Assembly (NCBI RefSeq): GCF_000144695.1
Contig: NC_014378.1
Coordinates: forward strand, 532,781-596,780
DNA from: Acetohalobium arabaticum DSM 5501
Lineage (GTDB): Bacteria; Bacillota; Halanaerobiia; Halobacteroidales; Acetohalobiaceae
Direction of reading: 5' to 3'
Length of the DNA: 64,000 bases
Shown here: positions 1,707 to 9,066 of the stretch, piece by piece
Numbering within the stretch: the first letter of the stretch is position 1
How the letters are laid out: each line of letters opens with the position of its first letter
Position numbers and translations under genes: made by a program
The notes under the pieces: model-generated
Told to the model about the DNA's origin: nothing
What the model saw: the letters and a program-made list of their open reading frames with translations, nothing else
The model's database searches: none

Positions 1707-2881
1707 AAATAATTAAATCGGGGATGCTGACCCTCATTGAAGATGATGGAAGATATGGTTATCAGCAGTATGGAGTTCCCGTCTCTGGAACTATGGATTT
1801 TTTTGCTCATAGATTAGCTAATATTTTAGTTGGTAATGATGAACTGGAAAGTGTATTAGAAACTACGATAATAGGACCTGAAATTGAATTTCATGATGAT
1901 ATGGTAATTGCTATAACAGGAGCAGATTCATCTCCGATTTTAAATGGTAAAAGTATTCCTTTATGGCAGAGTATAAGAGTTCACAGGGGAGATCATCTGA
2001 GTTTTAATGGAATCAAAGATGGCTGTAGGAGTTATATTGCTTTTTCTGGTGGATTTGATGTTCCCGTTGTAATGGATAGTAAGTCAACTTATATTAAAGC
2101 AGGGATTGGTGGGTTTAAAGGAAGAGCATTAAATCAAGGTGATGTACTCAGGATTGGAGAGCCTACAGAAGAGATAACTGAACTAGAAGGACGTAAGATT
2201 CCTCAAGAATATATTAATTATCATCTGCAAGATAATATTAATATTCGAGTTGTATTAGGCCCTCAAAAGGAATATTTTACTGCTAAAGGAATTGAAGCAT
2301 TTTTATCGAATAAATATGAAATAACTAATGAATCTGATCGCATGGGGTATAGATTGAATGGAGAAGAGATTGAACATAAAAAAAGTGCTGATATACTATC
2401 TGATGGTATTGCAATGGGAGCAGTACAGGTTCCCAGTAATGGACAGCCGATAATTATGATGGCTGATAGGCAGGTAACAGGTGGATATACTAAAATAGCA
2501 AATGTAATTACAGTCGATTTACCTAAGATTGCACAGGCTAAACCTGGACAAGAGATTGAATTTGAAGCGATAACAGTTCAAAAAGCACAGAAATTATTAA
2601 GAAGCTTTGAAAATAAAATTAATTTTATAAAAAGGGTATTTAAGTTGAAATTAAAGAATAATAAGAAACTAATTACTTATAGATTAGATGAATTGTCGAA
2701 GTTATTCCTGGATAATATTAAAGATGAGGTGAAAGATTGTACAGATAAAAGAGAAGAAATAAATTTAAGTAAAATTAAAGAGTTAGTTAAGCTTTTGAAT
2801 GAAACTGATGTTTATGAAATCAACTTTAAAAAGAATGATATTAAAATAAACATTAAGAAAAGAAGTGCTAGAAATTTCTAG
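1694..2881 (+). CDS. pxpC: 5-oxoprolinase subunit C with an AccB-like C-terminal tail
   Basis: Residues 1 to about 320 are a standard PxpC/KipA domain (GYQQYGVPVSGTMD, ITGADSSP, RMGYRLNG, SDGIAMGAVQVPSNGQPI, DRQVTGGYTKIA), the partner of PxpB in 5-oxoproline hydrolysis. The protein then runs about 75 residues beyond the usual end. Residues about 355-388 (INLSKIKELVKLLNETDVYE and following) resemble the N-terminal segment of biotin carboxyl carrier protein AccB, a gene often placed next to pxpBC. The biotinyl domain with its MKM lysine is absent. Translation starts at GTG 1694 inside pxpB, and the stop lies inside a large palindrome. The tail could be a degraded accB fused to pxpC. Confidence 0.85.
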   Translation: MGEIKIIKSGMLTLIEDDGRYGYQQYGVPVSGTMDFFAHRLANILVGNDELESVLETTIIGPEIEFHDDMVIAITGADSSPILNGKSIPLWQSIRVHRGDHLSFNGIKDGCRSYIAFSGGFDVPVVMDSKSTYIKAGIGGFKGRALNQGDVLRIGEPTEEITELEGRKIPQEYINYHLQDNINIRVVLGPQKEYFTAKGIEAFLSNKYEITNESDRMGYRLNGEEIEHKKSADILSDGIAMGAVQVPSNGQPIIMMADRQVTGGYTKIANVITVDLPKIAQAKPGQEIEFEAITVQKAQKLLRSFENKINFIKRVFKLKLKNNKKLITYRLDELSKLFLDNIKDEVKDCTDKREEINLSKIKELVKLLNETDVYEINFKKNDIKINIKKRSARNF

Positions 2882-2901
2882 CACTTCTTTTCTTAATGTT
2901 T
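2848..2901. terminator. 54-bp perfect palindrome over the pxpC stop codon, probable bidirectional terminator
   Basis: Bases 2848-2874 are the exact reverse complement of 2875-2901, with no spacer. The left arm carries an A-rich tract and the right arm a T-rich one (TTCTTTTCTT), as in bidirectional intrinsic terminators. The pxpC stop TAG (2879-2881) lies inside the right arm. Confidence 0.7.
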
Positions 2902-3212: not shown

Positions 3213-4112
3213 ATGTTTCATAGTTTTGCACAATCAGTCTACTTTGCTCCACGGGGTAAAAAGAGATTAATGTTGCTGGGAGATAGCTTAAGCCAGAAAT
3301 ATTTAAGTCCTACTGATAAACTGATCGGTTTGATCGGTGAAGGAGGTTCCGGTAAATCACTCTTGATTAAAGGAATGTTTCCTGGATTAAATTTAACCAA
3401 TGATGATAATGGAGTAGAAGTACGTCCGCTTCCTTTATGGGAAGGGTCTGAGAAGAATAACTTTACTAATCATACTTATCATGTGGATGCTAAGTTTGAA
3501 ACAGCATTTATGCAGCCCTGGGAGCTAGGTTCTGCGATTCAGAAAGCAATAGATAATGAGCGGCGGGTTGTGATTGAACATTTTGAGTTAATAGCAGAAT
3601 ATTTGAGAATGGATGCTGATTTATTAGTGGGGATCGGCGAAGAAGTTTTAATAACCAGACCGGGAGTCTTTGGACCACAACCGGAGGAAATAGTAGAGAT
3701 AGTCTTTAAATCAATTAAGCATAGGCGGATGGCCCATACTGTTGAGGATTTGACTTCTAAAGTATTAGAAGAAGAACTGGGAGTAGAGAAGCCTACCTAT
3801 CACAGTGATGTAAAGAGCGGCTTTGTACTTCAGTTTGATGAGAAGCCAGAGTTTGACTTTGAAGAGTTAGAAACTAGAGTAAAGGAGATTATAGATAAGA
3901 ATCTACCGGTAAGCTTTCATGATGAAAGCAGTATTAATATTGGAGAGGATACGTATTCATGTACTGGACCAAGAATCCATGTTAATAAGACAGGAGATAT
4001 TAATTACTTTAGATTAATTAAGGAATTAAAGTATGATGCAAAGATTGGGCGTTATTTATTAGCAGGATTTGTTGGTAGGGAGAGAAGTCAATTTGAATTA
4101 AGCCATAAGTAG
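3213..4112 (+). CDS. P-loop protein with alanyl-tRNA synthetase SAD-like C-terminal domain (copy A)
   Basis: This 299-residue protein begins with a P-loop NTPase-like part (Walker A GEGGSGKS at 42-49). It ends with a segment resembling the second additional domain of alanyl-/threonyl-tRNA synthetases: H170-x4-H175 in HRRMAHTVEDL, and C250/H256 in CTGPRIHVNKTGDI, which parallels the CGGTHVxxTG metal-binding motif. This matches a family annotated as 'alanine-tRNA synthetase second additional domain-containing protein', whose function is not known to me. The start follows AAAGGGGAG. The next gene is a paralogue of identical length 24 bases downstream, so the pair is a tandem duplication, probably one operon. 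A tRNA-related or nucleotide-dependent role is only a guess. Confidence 0.75.
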   Translation: MFHSFAQSVYFAPRGKKRLMLLGDSLSQKYLSPTDKLIGLIGEGGSGKSLLIKGMFPGLNLTNDDNGVEVRPLPLWEGSEKNNFTNHTYHVDAKFETAFMQPWELGSAIQKAIDNERRVVIEHFELIAEYLRMDADLLVGIGEEVLITRPGVFGPQPEEIVEIVFKSIKHRRMAHTVEDLTSKVLEEELGVEKPTYHSDVKSGFVLQFDEKPEFDFEELETRVKEIIDKNLPVSFHDESSINIGEDTYSCTGPRIHVNKTGDINYFRLIKELKYDAKIGRYLLAGFVGRERSQFELSHK

Positions 4113-4136
4113 TTGAAAGAGAAAGGAGTTAGGAGA

Positions 4137-5036
4137 ATGTTTGATTGTCTTGCTCAATCAGTCTATTTTGCTCCGCGGGGTAGAAGGAGATTAATGTTAT
4201 TGGGGAAAAACCTAGCTCAAAAATATTTAACTGATGATGACAAAATAATAGGTTTGATTGGAGATGAGGGTTCCGGTAAGTCATTATTGATTCGCGGTAT
4301 GTTTCCCGGATTAAATTTAGTTAATGATGATAAGGGGATCAATATTAAGCCTTCATCCATTATACAGGATGCAAGAGAGAATAATTTTAATAGCCATACG
4401 TATCATGTTGATGTCAGATTTGAAACTGCTTTTGTGCAGCCCTGGCAGTTAGGAGAGGTAGTTCAGAAGGCAGTAGATGACGGACAGCGGGTTGTTATTG
4501 AGCATTTTGAATTATTAGCTGATCATCTTGAACTAGATGCCGATTTATTGTTAGGTATTGGGGAGGAAGTCCTGACTATGCGTCCAGGAGTTTTTAGCTC
4601 TCATCCAGAGGAGATAGCAGAAATAGTCTTTGATTCAATTAAATATAGGCGGATGGCCCATACTGCTGAAGATTTAACTTCTAAAGTGTTAGAAGAGGAG
4701 CTGGGAGTAAAGAAGTCTACTTATCATAGTGATGTAAAGAGCGGTTTTGTGCTTCAGTTTGAAGAAAAGCCGGAGTTTGACTTTGATGATTTAGAAACGA
4801 AAATAAATGAGGTTATTGCTGATAATAAACTAGTGAAATTTCATGATAGAGAACATATTAAGATAGGAGATGAAACCTATCCTTGCAGCGGGCCCCGTAT
4901 TCATGTTAAGAAGACAGGCGATATAAAGAACTTTAGATTGATCAAAGAGCTGAAGTATGACTCCAAGCAAGAACGTTATTTATTAACAGGTTTAGTTGGA
5001 GATGAACAGAGCCAGTTTGAATTGAGTAATAAATAA
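4137..5036 (+). CDS. P-loop protein with alanyl-tRNA synthetase SAD-like C-terminal domain (copy B)
   Basis: This is a close paralogue of the preceding gene along its whole length, with Walker A GDEGSGKS, the RRMAHTAEDLTSKVLEEELG helix and CSGPRIHVKKTGDI. I placed the start at ATG 4137, just after GGAGTTAGGAGA; this gives 299 residues, the same as copy A, whereas a TTG start at 4113 would add eight residues with no homology. Both copies keep all motif residues, so both are probably functional. Sequence differs most around residues 65-85 and in the linker before the C-terminal domain. Function unknown. Confidence 0.75.
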   Translation: MFDCLAQSVYFAPRGRRRLMLLGKNLAQKYLTDDDKIIGLIGDEGSGKSLLIRGMFPGLNLVNDDKGINIKPSSIIQDARENNFNSHTYHVDVRFETAFVQPWQLGEVVQKAVDDGQRVVIEHFELLADHLELDADLLLGIGEEVLTMRPGVFSSHPEEIAEIVFDSIKYRRMAHTAEDLTSKVLEEELGVKKSTYHSDVKSGFVLQFEEKPEFDFDDLETKINEVIADNKLVKFHDREHIKIGDETYPCSGPRIHVKKTGDIKNFRLIKELKYDSKQERYLLTGLVGDEQSQFELSNK

Positions 5037-5114
5037 TCTACCATTAATAAAGGAGAAAGTTAATAATTATTGAAATAATACAAAGGCTAATAAGTGGAAA
5101 GGAGTATTAATATA

Positions 5115-5870
5115 ATGCGTGTTGATGGAAGAGATAGAGATGAATTAAGAGAAGTTACTATTACTAGAGATTTTACTAAGTATGCTGAAGGATCAATTCT
5201 AATTTCTACTGGAGATACAAAGGTGATCTGTAATGCTTCAGTAGAAGAGAGTGTGCCGTATTTTTTGAGAGACCAAGGACAGGGTTGGATTACTGGTGAA
5301 TATGCTATGCTGCCGCGGGCTACGGAAAGCAGAAATATTAGAGCAGCAGCTAAGGGGAAGATCAGCGGTCGGACTAAAGAAATTCAGCGGTTGATCGGCC
5401 GGGCCATGAGATCAGTTATTGATTTAGATAAATTAGGAGAAAGGACTATCTGGTTGGATTGTGATGTGATTCAGGCAGATGGAGGTACAAGGACAGCTTC
5501 GATAACTGGTGCCTTTGTAGCTTTGATCGATGCTTTAGATTACTTGTTAGAAAAAGATAAGATAGATGAGATGCCGGTAAAATCCTTTATTGCTGCTACT
5601 AGTGTGGGAATTATTGATGGTGCTCCGGCTTTAGATCTCTGTTATAAGGAGGATTCATCAGCTCAGGTAGATTTAAACCTAGTTATGACAGAAGAGGGAA
5701 GAATTATTGAGATCCAGGGTACCGGTGAAGAGAATCCCTTTACGCAGCAGGAACTGGATAAATTAGTTGAGTTAGGGGAAAAAGGAATTAAAGAATTAAT
5801 TAGATATCAAAAGGAAGCACTAGGAGATAAGGCTGAATTATTAAATCAAAAGGAAGATGATAATGCGTAA
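5115..5870 (+). CDS. rph: ribonuclease PH
   Basis: RNase PH is a phosphorolytic 3' exoribonuclease that trims tRNA 3' ends. The protein matches the family throughout: [12 protein letters not shown] at the N-terminus, [13 protein letters not shown], the signature [16 protein letters not shown], then [14 protein letters not shown] and [20 protein letters not shown] chose ATG 5115 because the family starts with MRVDGR; GTG 5094 would add seven residues. The end overlaps the next gene by 8 bases, and the order rph, XTP pyrophosphatase, YfcE-like phosphodiesterase is that of Bacillus rph-ysnA-ysnB. Length 251 is normal. Confidence 0.95.
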
Positions 5871-6465
5871 GATCTTTTTGGCTACCGGTAATGAAGGTAA
5901 AGTGAAAGAAATGAAGGATTTATTGGCAGAATTAGAAGTAGAGCTTGTAACTACTTTTGATCTTTCGGAAGTGCCAGAAGTAGTAGAGGACGGCTCAACT
6001 TTAGAAGAGAATGCTATCAAAAAGGCTAAAGAGCTTGCTGATTATACAGGGTTATTAACGATTGCAGACGATACTGGATTATTAGTTGATGCTTTAGCCG
6101 GTAGACCGGGAGTCTACTCAGCGCGGTATGCTGGAGAAGATGCTACTTATGATGATAATAATCGTAAGTTATTATCAGAATTAGATGGTATATCGCTAGA
6201 AGACCGAACAGCTCGTTTTAAGACGGTGATGGCTCTAGTAAAGTCGGAGGGAGAAGTAAAGACAGTGGAAGGAATCTGTAAAGGGAAGATTGGCTTTAAG
6301 CCGGAAGGGAACCACGGTTTTGGCTATGATCCGTTATTTATACCTCAGGGTTATAATGTTACTTTTGCTGAAATGAAGTCAGAAGTTAAGAATAAAATTA
6401 GCCATCGGGCTAAGGCTTTAGATAAATTAAAGGAGATTCTACAGTCGGATTGGATGGATCAATAA
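5863..6465 (+). CDS. rdgB: RdgB/HAM1-family XTP/dITP pyrophosphatase
   Basis: This enzyme hydrolyses XTP, ITP and dITP to monophosphates and so keeps deaminated purines out of nucleic acids. The motifs are complete: [13 protein letters not shown] at the N-terminus, [40 protein letters not shown] and [12 protein letters not shown]-like [13 protein letters not shown] 5863 is preferred over ATG 5857 because AAAAGGAAG lies seven bases upstream and the family begins with an xxIFLATGN strand. It overlaps rph at its start and the phosphodiesterase start codon at its stop, so the three genes form one translationally coupled operon. Confidence 0.93.
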
Positions 6466-6932
6466 TGAAGATATTATGTACCAGTGATACCCATGGCAAT
6501 ACAGAAAAACTAAAAGAGGTAGTAAAATCAGTAGAAGGAATTGATATTCTATTGCATGCTGGGGATCATATTGGAGATGTTGATGCTATCGATCAGAGTG
6601 AGTTTGATGTCTTTAAAGTTAAAGGCAACTGTGACCGGGGAGTTAAAGGTAAGTCAAAAGAGGTAATTACTATGGAAGATAAAAAAATACTGTTAACCCA
6701 CGGCCATCAATACGAAATTAAGTATGGATTACAGAAACTCTCTTATCAGGCAGCAGAGGTAGAAGCAGATATAGTAGTTTTTGGCCATACTCATAGAAGT
6801 CTATCTCTGAATGAGGAAGGGATTTTATACTTTAATCCCGGTAGTATCACTTATCCTCGTGATGATTCTGCTTCATGCGGTATCCTCGAAATTAAAGATG
6901 GTAAAGTTGAGGGTGAGCTCAAAAGATTATAA
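6465..6932 (+). CDS. YfcE/MJ0936-family metallophosphodiesterase
   Basis: This is a 155-residue calcineurin-like phosphoesterase. The metal-ligand motifs are all visible: SDTHGN (residues 8-13), AGDHIGD, KGNCD, THGHQY and FGHTHRS, followed by NPGSITYPRD. Such enzymes hydrolyse phosphodiesters in vitro; their physiological substrate is usually unknown. ATG 6465 overlaps the stop of the upstream gene; the longer frame from 6450 adds only MDGSI. Bacillus YsnB occupies the same position, supporting orthology. Confidence 0.88.
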   Translation: MKILCTSDTHGNTEKLKEVVKSVEGIDILLHAGDHIGDVDAIDQSEFDVFKVKGNCDRGVKGKSKEVITMEDKKILLTHGHQYEIKYGLQKLSYQAAEVEADIVVFGHTHRSLSLNEEGILYFNPGSITYPRDDSASCGILEIKDGKVEGELKRL

Positions 6933-7424: not shown

Positions 7425-7500
7425 GGGCCATTAGCTCAGCTGGAAGAGCATCGGACTTTTAATCCGAGTGTCGGAGGTTCGATCCCTCCATGGCTCACCA
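7425..7500 (+). tRNA. tRNA-Lys (anticodon TTT)
   Basis: Acceptor GGGCCAT pairs with ATGGCTC; anticodon loop CTTTTAA gives TTT. CCA is encoded. Confidence 0.97.
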
Positions 7501-7525
7501 TCTTTACAATTAATGCAGATGATGA

Positions 7526-7600
7526 GCGGGAATAGCTCAGGGGTAGAGCGTCTCGTTGCCAACGAGAAGGTCGCGGGTTCAAATCCCGTTTCCCGCTCCA
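7526..7600 (+). tRNA. tRNA-Gly (anticodon GCC)
   Basis: Acceptor GCGGGAA/TTCCCGC; anticodon stem-loop TCTCG-TTGCCAA-CGAGA gives GCC. With the TCC tRNA at 7083 it covers all glycine codons. CCA is encoded. Confidence 0.97.
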
Positions 7601-7618
7601 TTAAAGAAAGAATATTTA

Positions 7619-7663
7619 ACCTCGGAACGACAGTCTGTGTCGTGACCCGAGGTATTGTTTTTA
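7619..7663 (+). terminator. intrinsic terminator of the tRNA operon
   Basis: ACCTCGG (7619-7625) pairs with CCGAGGT (7647-7653), with an inner ACGACA/TGTCGT stem, followed by ATTGTTTTTA. Confidence 0.85.
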
Positions 7664-7785
7664 TGTAATGATAATGAAGGAAATAAACATAAAGTCTAGA
7701 AATAATTAAAATGGATATAAAGACAATAGAAGATAAACAAATTAAATCACAATTACATATAATTCTTAATAAGGGGGAAGCATAA

Positions 7786-9066
7786 ATGAAGGTAAGCCAA
7801 GAAATGATTGAAGAAAATAAAGTTAAACTAGATGTAGAAGTGGAGGCTGAAGAAACCAACAAAGCTTTAGAGGAAGCCTATAAAGAAGTAGTTAAAGATG
7901 TAGAGATTGATGGATTTAGAAAAGGAAAGGTTCCACGGCAGGTTCTGGAAGCAAAATACGGAAAGGAAATTCTACACAAAGATGCGCTGGATATTCTAAT
8001 TCCTAAAGCCTATCGAGAAGCAGTAGAAGAAGCCGGAATTGAGCCTATTGATCAGCCGGAGATAAATGATTTCTCTATTGAAGAGGATAAACCGACTACT
8101 TTTACAGCAGAAGTAGAGATTAAGCCTGAAGTAGAATTGGGTGAATATACAGACTTAGATATTGAACAGGAAGCTGAAGAGATTACAGAAGAGGATGTGC
8201 AGGAAGAATTAAATAACAGAAGAGAGCGATTTGCTGAATTAAAAGTAACTGATCGTGATGAGGTTCAGGAAGGTGACTATGTAGTTATTGATTTTGAAGG
8301 ATATGTTGATGGCGAACCTTTCGAAGGCGGTTCTGCAGAAGAATATACATTGGAGATCGGTTCCGGTGACTTTATTCCTGGATTTGAGGAACAATTGGTT
8401 GGAGCTAAAGTAGGAGAAGAGGTTGAGGTTGATGTAACTTTTCCCGAAGAGTATCAACAGGATGATTTAGCCGGCGAAGGTGCTGTCTTTAAAGTAGATG
8501 TTAAGGAGATTAAAGAGAAAGAACTACCGGAATTGGATGATGAGCTAGCCCAAGAAGTTGGAGATTTTGAAACATTGGATGAATTAAAAGATGATATTAC
8601 TAATAAACTAAAAGAAGAAGCAGAACGGAAAGCTAAAAATAAATTCACAAATGAATTAGTAGAAGCTATTTCTGAAAATGCAGAAGTTAATATTCCAGAA
8701 ACTATGGTTGAAGACGAACTGGATCTGATGGTGGATACTATGAAGCAGAGATTACAACAGCAGGGAATGGACTTTGAACAGTATTTAGAGATGACAGGAA
8801 ATGATGAGGCAAGCTTCAGAGAAGAAAACAGGGAAGAAGCTAGAAAACGGGTTAAATCAAGCCTTGCTCTGGAAGAAATTGCAGAAGAAGAGGATATTGA
8901 TGTAACAGAAGAAGAAATTGAGAATAAAATAGAAGAAATAGCAGATCAACAGGAGCAGGATCCAGAGATGGTAAAGGCAATGCTTCAGATGCAGGGACAG
9001 TATGAATCATTAATTGAAAGTATTCAGAATGAAAAAGTACTTGACTTTTTAACAGAGAATAATTAA
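7786..9066 (+). CDS. tig: trigger factor
   Basis: Trigger factor is the ribosome-bound chaperone and prolyl isomerase that meets nascent chains. The N-terminal ribosome-docking signature GFRKGKVP is at residues 43-50. An FKBP-type domain follows at about 155-240 (GDYVVIDFEGYVDGEPFEGG, GDFIPGFEEQLVGAKVGEE, VTFPEEY), then a long helical C-terminal arm. Length 426 is typical. The protein is very acidic, as expected for a salt-adapted organism. The start follows AAGGGGGAAG. It heads the proteolysis block with clpP and clpX, the usual Firmicute arrangement. Confidence 0.97.
   Translation: MKVSQEMIEENKVKLDVEVEAEETNKALEEAYKEVVKDVEIDGFRKGKVPRQVLEAKYGKEILHKDALDILIPKAYREAVEEAGIEPIDQPEINDFSIEEDKPTTFTAEVEIKPEVELGEYTDLDIEQEAEEITEEDVQEELNNRRERFAELKVTDRDEVQEGDYVVIDFEGYVDGEPFEGGSAEEYTLEIGSGDFIPGFEEQLVGAKVGEEVEVDVTFPEEYQQDDLAGEGAVFKVDVKEIKEKELPELDDELAQEVGDFETLDELKDDITNKLKEEAERKAKNKFTNELVEAISENAEVNIPETMVEDELDLMVDTMKQRLQQQGMDFEQYLEMTGNDEASFREENREEARKRVKSSLALEEIAEEEDIDVTEEEIENKIEEIADQQEQDPEMVKAMLQMQGQYESLIESIQNEKVLDFLTENN

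Follow-up and report, generated by a model that had tools for sequence, protein, structure and literature searches.

Organization of the locus

The window, which means the whole stretch of DNA analysed here, comprises 64,000 nt of Acetohalobium arabaticum DSM 5501 (NC_014378.1, 532,781-596,780, forward strand). At 3213-5036 it contains two tandem genes whose products share 70% identity (Table 1). The family protein, in which a TsaE-like domain is combined with an SAD domain, is called SADp in the following. The tandem pair reported in an earlier note on this DNA is confirmed. The mechanical call of the second ORF (4113-5036) begins at TTG 4113, but ATG 4137 is most likely the real start since AAAGGAG/AGGAG lies just 5' of it.

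Directly upstream of the pair, genes for D-glutamate cyclase (PF07286), pxpB and pxpC were found (469-2881), and genes of D-glutamate/5-oxoproline use thus adjoin both the SADp pair and the glutamate mutase operon described below. The 5-oxoprolinase subunit PxpC (1694-2881) has about 80 extra C-terminal residues (...SKIKELVKLLNETDVYEINFKKNDIKINIKK...), which resemble the N-terminal part of AccB, the biotin carrier protein; a Pfam search of this extension gave no match. Besides, a minus-strand ORF of 143 aa (7431-7862) overlaps the start of trigger factor and contains MERETGFEPATFSLATRRSTPELF..., which we take to be a string of the type common in spurious ORFs that derive from clusters of tRNA genes. 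This ORF is probably not a gene.

Table 1. Features of the SADp locus, in positions of the window
Feature	Position	Strand	Evidence
Terminator-like hairpin, strong and bidirectional, between pxpC and the SADp pair	2851-2898	.	20-pair stem
SADp copy 1, 299 aa	3213-4112	+	ORF; Ka/Ks 0.041 against the congeneric orthologue; model pLDDT 87
Copy 1, TsaE-like P-loop domain, residues ~22-131	3276-3605	+	HMM-HMM against TsaE; Foldseek 1htw, 6nak, 1fl9
Copy 1, Walker A GEGGSGKS, residues 42-49	3336-3359	+	Invariant positions in 48 homologues
Copy 1, SAD (AlaX/AlaRS/ThrRS editing-type) domain, residues ~157-288	3681-4076	+	HMM-HMM; Foldseek 1wnu, 2e1b
Copy 1, putative metal-site motif 1, H175-x3-D179	3735-3749	+	Aligned to HxxxH of AlaRS/ThrRS
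Copy 1, putative metal-site motif 2, C250-T-G-P-R-I-H256	3960-3980	+	Aligned to CxxxH, two-residue insertion
SADp copy 2, 299 aa	4137-5036	+	ORF; AAAGGAG 5' of the ATG; Ka/Ks 0.085; model pLDDT 84
Copy 2, TsaE-like P-loop domain	4200-4529	+	Pfam TsaE; Foldseek 1fl9, 1htw, 6nak
Copy 2, Walker A GDEGSGKS, residues 42-49	4260-4283	+	Invariant positions in 48 homologues
Copy 2, SAD domain	4605-5000	+	Pfam tRNA_SAD; Foldseek 2e1b, 9iuw, 2zze
Copy 2, putative metal-site motif 1, H175-x3-D179	4659-4673	+	Aligned to HxxxH of AlaRS/ThrRS
Copy 2, putative metal-site motif 2, C250-S-G-P-R-I-H256	4884-4904	+	Aligned to CxxxH, two-residue insertion
rph, rdgB and YfcE-like phosphodiesterase genes, downstream of the pair	5094-6932	+	rph directly 3' of the SADp gene in 77/113 loci

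A TsaE-like ATPase domain fused to an SAD domain

The earlier note had proposed that an NTPase-like domain and a tRNA-editing-type domain are joined in one protein, and Pfam, HMM-HMM comparison and Foldseek all agree with this. In the predicted structures of both copies a P-loop fold and an SAD fold were found, so the outcome that would have spoken against the proposal, neither fold, did not occur.

For the N-terminal half, the Walker A motif noticed earlier is present in both copies as G42-x4-G47-K48-S49. Copy 2 matched Pfam TsaE with 18.2 bits (E 0.0025, residues 22-131), below the cut-off of 26.6, and the score against TIGR00150 (NCBIfam) was 18.0, below the cut-off of 60.1; the Pfam tRNA_SAD and TsaE scores of copy 1 were weaker than those of copy 2. 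The TsaE profile was matched at E<1 in all 26 SADp relatives searched (26/26), HMM-HMM comparison with TsaE sequences from related genomes gave E 2.3e-6, and Foldseek retrieved YjeE/TsaE chains (1fl9, 1htw, 6nak, 6n9a) at probability 1.00 with the AlphaFold models of both copies. From these matches and models, the P-loop of SADp is assigned to the TsaE type specifically. It shares with TsaE/YjeE (PF02367) the P-loop fold, the Walker A motif, the YHxD motif (H90, D92) and the Walker-B-like IE(W) position (E122), and K48, S49, H90, D92, E122 and H123 are invariant across 48 aligned homologues. However, the W of IEW is replaced by His (H123), an additional N-terminal YFAPRGK segment and the C-terminal SAD domain are present, and the scores lie under the family cut-off. 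TsaE/YjeE is the ATPase of t6A tRNA modification and acts on TsaB-TsaD. The genome holds a separate canonical TsaE (L173, G000:C1:2191716-2192084, 142 bits), so that SADp is not the t6A TsaE of this genome; ordinary AlaRS and ThrRS are present as well.

The likeness of the C-terminal half to the AlaRS SAD, also claimed in the earlier note, was confirmed by tRNA_SAD, HMM-HMM comparison and AlaX/AlaRS fold matches. Pfam tRNA_SAD (cut-off 24) scored 24.7 bits in copy 2 and 18.1 in copy 1, and 22 of the 26 relatives matched it at E<1. HMM-HMM comparison with sequences from related genomes gave E values of 1.5e-7 for AlaRS and 8.9e-8 for ThrRS, and AlaX/AlaRS chains in PDB were retrieved by Foldseek for both AlphaFold models at probability 1.00. 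In the alignments to AlaRS and ThrRS alike, H175 corresponds to the first and D179 to the second His of HxxxH, while C250 and H256 align with the Cys and His of CxxxH with two residues inserted, giving C-x5-H. H175, C250 and H256 occur in 48/48 homologues, and position 179 is D in 47/48 and E in 1/48, so that the canonical HxxxH and CxxxH zinc ligands were both absent from the 48 SADp homologues. A metal site of the form H-x3-D(E) … C-x5-H is plausible, because Asp and Glu are usual metal ligands. A pairwise phmmer alignment had placed R171 at the first His of a canonical HxxxH; this version was dropped, as the HMM-HMM alignments agree for AlaRS and ThrRS.

The motifs of the earlier note fared differently. 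The C-GPR-IHV motif stands in both copies as C-[ST]-G-P-R-I-H-V, whereas the His-x4-His helix is not kept in both: position 170 is His in copy 1 and Tyr in copy 2, and it is His in only 2/48 relatives, which makes His-x4-His look accidental. In comparison with AlaX and the AlaRS/ThrRS editing domains (PF07973), SADp has the SAD fold, H175, C250, H256 and a T-G-[DE]-I...F-x-L stretch that follows the Cys motif. The differences are the Asp/Glu in place of the second His of HxxxH, the change from CxxxH to C-x5-H with a conserved Arg, and the absence of C-Ala or synthetase domains from a protein that is joined to a TsaE-like ATPase instead.

Uridine kinase-like proteins with TGS/SAD domains exist, in which another P-loop enzyme is joined to an SAD domain; their P-loop family is uridine kinase/PRK, not TsaE. 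The combination of a P-loop with an SAD domain is therefore not unique as such. In the open-access literature searched there was no paper that pairs TsaE/YjeE with SAD/AlaX, deals with misincorporation of methylaspartate, mentions a 'second additional domain-containing protein' or links the SADp fusion to glutamate mutase. The family is apparently unstudied, and there is weak evidence of novelty for SADp as two known domains newly combined and attached to a known pathway. Its NCBI label is presumably SAD-domain protein. A viral origin was also considered and rejected, with no fold match to a viral protein at E<=0.001.

Copy number and selection of SADp

Two copies of SADp were found in 2 of 113 distinct loci, those of the window genome and its congener, and all other loci are single-copy; the comparison with relatives suggested in the earlier note thus gives one copy outside the genus of the window. 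In the SADp tree the duplication lies inside this genus and is later than its separation from the other genera sampled in the same taxonomic family, and the relatives G299 and G300 have one copy each. Ka/Ks values between the window genome and its congener (Table 1) indicate that both copies are under purifying selection, and both were presumably kept functional after the genus-level duplication. The earlier note had suggested two non-redundant or hetero-oligomeric subunits. The part that stands is that both copies are intact and selected; since the tandem is a genus-level duplication, hetero-oligomerization cannot hold for the family as a whole.

Genomic neighbourhood of SADp

Genome contigs were searched with an alignment query, which gave 249 loci, whereas a scan with a single SADp sequence gave none. 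The context counts cover 113 distinct loci. AtuA and an MBL-fold hydrolase, merged in one cluster ('c4') through a joined 715-aa ORF, were split before counting. In the first 41 loci, SADp lies mostly between glutamate mutase/methylaspartate genes and rph-rdgB. Generally, at least one methylaspartate-pathway gene is near SADp (88 of 113 loci). Within the fetched stretches of the 113 loci, MutE (the E protein of glutamate mutase, a B12 enzyme) was found in 67, MAL in 58, AtuA in 46, DUF4387, MutS and MutL in 45 each, and the two fumarase-type mesaconase subunits in 37 and 32.

The rph neighbourhood, which the earlier note had singled out for checking, is present in 80/113 loci, with rph directly 3' of the SADp gene in 77/113. 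This is only half of the picture, however, since methylaspartate genes accompany SADp also without rph (29 of the 88 loci), and SADp is therefore not simply an rph neighbour. For instance, the gene order is MutS-MutL-MutE-MAL-AtuA-DUF4387-SADp-FumA in L148 and SADp-FumA-FumA-GntR-MutS-MutL-MutE-MAL in L150. The window genome itself has a complete MutS-MutL-MutE-MAL-AtuA-DUF4387-(sigma-54 activator)-FumA-FumB operon about 9 to 19 kb upstream of the SADp pair, and the sigma-54 activator is PrdR-like.

A methylaspartate glutamate-fermentation operon, GlmS-MutL-GlmE-Mal-mesaconase, has been described, together with clusters in which MurI, HgdBC, mesaconase, citrate-lyase genes and a DUF1446 gene are named (PMC4682846). 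In Bacillota, the SADp gene recurs within or next to such operons, whereas the text of that paper on these operons mentions no alanyl-tRNA-type gene. Besides, DUF4387 (L036:6346-6702) and AtuA/DUF1446 (L061:3825-5189) are themselves regular members of the Bacillota methylaspartate operon. An apparent DUF4387-SADp fusion in G260 (425-aa ORF) was discarded, as the contig has a run of N between both genes, and a link to sporulation, where Spo0A or SpoIIR adjoins SADp in a few loci, was dropped as too sporadic.

Co-occurrence of SADp with MutE

Co-occurrence was counted in 300 genomes (299 sampled ones and the window genome), with presence thresholds of E<1e-60 for SADp and E<1e-50 for MutE. SADp is present in 58 genomes, MutE in 72 and both in 57 (Fisher p 5e-46, a value inflated by relatedness). 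Of the SADp-positive genomes only one, a MAG of 63% completeness, lacks MutE, while MAL and DUF4387 overlap with 48 and 46 of the 58. Since relatedness inflates the p-values, we also compared genomes inside families. It turned out that the presence of SADp and MutE varies in the same direction in nine families (f2, f4, f11, f15, f27, f34, f40, f54 and f123), with exceptions in f3 (two genomes with MutE and no SADp) and in incomplete MAGs of f17. All of 13 further, previously unused relatives are concordant (6 with both, 7 with neither). In G005, MutE is missing, and all that is left of SADp is a degraded gene next to rph, interrupted by a stop. The association of SADp with MutE is well supported, and by computation the dependence of SADp on the presence of MutE in its genome is near-absolute. 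This hints at a role in the fermentation of amino acids.

MutE without SADp, even by profile search, occurs in about 12 genomes, pathway-complete ones included, and SADp is thus not essential to the pathway. Ten sampled genomes have MutE and MAL without an SADp gene, among them G068 with a disrupted copy. On the MutE tree the presence of SADp changes at least 8 times, which rules out an SADp-specific MutE subclade. Together, these changes and the genomes with MutE and no SADp mark SADp as accessory and dispensable in some lineages.

In ten SADp-positive genomes the pathway seems to be missing or incomplete. Those with no MAL and no close MutS are G021, G033, G052, G065, G075, G104, G243, G267, G291 and the incomplete G260. 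The f27 genomes, G033, G075 and G052 carry SADp and a MutE homologue with no close MutS and no MAL; MutL is missing too, with G052 as the exception. In f27, G052 and G091, the MutE homologues have lost most of the residues that form the active site in Clostridium cochlearium GlmE, which we take to be R66, R100, R149-H150, E171, Y177 and Y181. Despite the degenerate MutE, SADp of f27 and G052 retains all motifs, and in G091 only the TsaE-like half of SADp is left (L052:6493-6990), adjoining the degenerate MutE. Because SADp persists beside a dead, partnerless MutE, its constant partner is the MutE protein rather than the pathway chemistry. Lineages of this kind, with a dead MutE and no MutS, offer a natural experiment in which catalysis is separated from the SADp-MutE partnership.

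Putative function of SADp

We propose, with a probability of roughly 0.37, that SADp is an ATP-gated ester hydrolase accessory to the MutE/methylaspartate system of Bacillota. The folds, the unvarying residues of the nucleotide and metal sites, the place of the gene in operons and the dependence on MutE are computed, whereas catalysis is inferred. In this view SADp combines a TsaE-like ATPase with a metal-dependent ester hydrolase (SAD) of the AlaX/ThrRS type. Acting in trans, the SAD domain would cleave an aminoacyl (or acyl) ester, and the TsaE-like domain, as it binds or hydrolyses a nucleotide, would control when substrate enters or product leaves. The most probable substrate would be tRNA mischarged with 3-methylaspartate, a non-protein amino acid and aspartate analogue made by the pathway, or with another glutamate-derived acid. 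This trans-editing reading fits since the SAD domains of assigned function (AlaX, AlaRS, ThrRS) are aminoacyl-tRNA deacylases and the pathway yields 3-methylaspartate that could be mischarged. We hold ATPase-gated editing of a pathway amino acid tentatively, at clearly less than even odds. Against it, the SAD residues are invariant even though the pathway is apparently absent or incomplete in ten SADp-positive genomes, and presumably no methylaspartate is made in the MAL-less ones, because the pathway seems absent or incomplete there; moreover, SADp has no tRNA-binding C-Ala-type domain and the proteins are acidic (pI 5.2-6.7). The full version, in which SADp is an ATP-coupled editing factor of one catabolic pathway that would clear 3-methylaspartate (or a relative) from tRNA via its Asp-substituted metal site, with the pair having a new, non-mutase function in lineages with dead orphan MutE, is decidedly doubtful.

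A close rival, although still unlikely, is that SADp acts on MutE. By analogy with TsaE, which serves TsaB-TsaD, its ATPase might power the assembly or activation of MutE, or of a complex that contains it, or reset the conformation of either, and SAD might be a binding or sensing module. No other partner is as constant as MutE (in 57 of 58 genomes; MAL in 48, DUF4387 in 46), dead MutE without MutS/MutL still adjoins SADp (GerM-...-MutE-SADp-Rph in f27), and loss of MutE accompanies decay of the SADp gene in G005. But many MutE, the C. cochlearium type included, occur without SADp, and a pure binding module would not need the invariant metal-site residues of SAD. Hydrolysis of a small-molecule acyl ester or thioester other than tRNA, such as a mesaconate/citramalate side product, coupled to ATP, would suit the many operons in which MAL, AtuA, DUF4387 and mesaconase genes flank SADp on one or both sides; it is improbable, given the orphan-MutE genomes without MAL, and we know of no SAD domain that hydrolyses small-molecule acyl esters or thioesters. 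Regulators are frequent nearby, such as the GntR-family protein of L150 and the PrdR-like activator of the operon in the window genome, so SADp might also be a sensor whose SAD domain binds glutamate or a related acid and whose P-loop signals, controlling glutamate use. With no DNA- or RNA-binding domain in SADp and fully conserved metal-site residues, such a role has poor prospects. Hardly credible, finally, is mere hitch-hiking, by which SADp and MutE would both belong to an old murI-gerM-rph cluster and be lost together. Clusters of the form murI-mutE-hgdD-hgdC-MBL-SADp-rph do exist, and the two genes, even when apart, often lie within 35 kb; on the other hand, SADp stands in or beside methylaspartate operons with no rph in 29 loci, and rph remains where SADp and MutE are absent or decayed (L053).

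With the present analysis a family seen at more than 100 sampled loci, whose automatic name would echo only AlaRS, gains a glutamate mutase setting and a testable site. If SADp is a pathway-specific editing factor, a fermentation operon would carry its own translation-quality-control enzyme; if it acts on MutE instead, this would explain why a subunit of a B12 enzyme has persisted as an inactive orphan.

Orphan MutE homologues

Orphan MutE homologues without the active site were located at L073:7814-9118, L165:4792-6009, L168:6815-8113 and L051:11201-12610. They have no MutS/MAL partners (in f27 also no MutL) and are conserved beside SADp or in the rph cluster. Besides, MurI-MutE(-HgdD-HgdC-MBL)-Rph clusters with an orphan MutE and no SADp occur in L228, L230, L231 and L232. 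These four loci carry genes of 2-hydroxyacyl-CoA-dehydratase/double-cubane-type reductases and represent a second unexplained setting of MutE.
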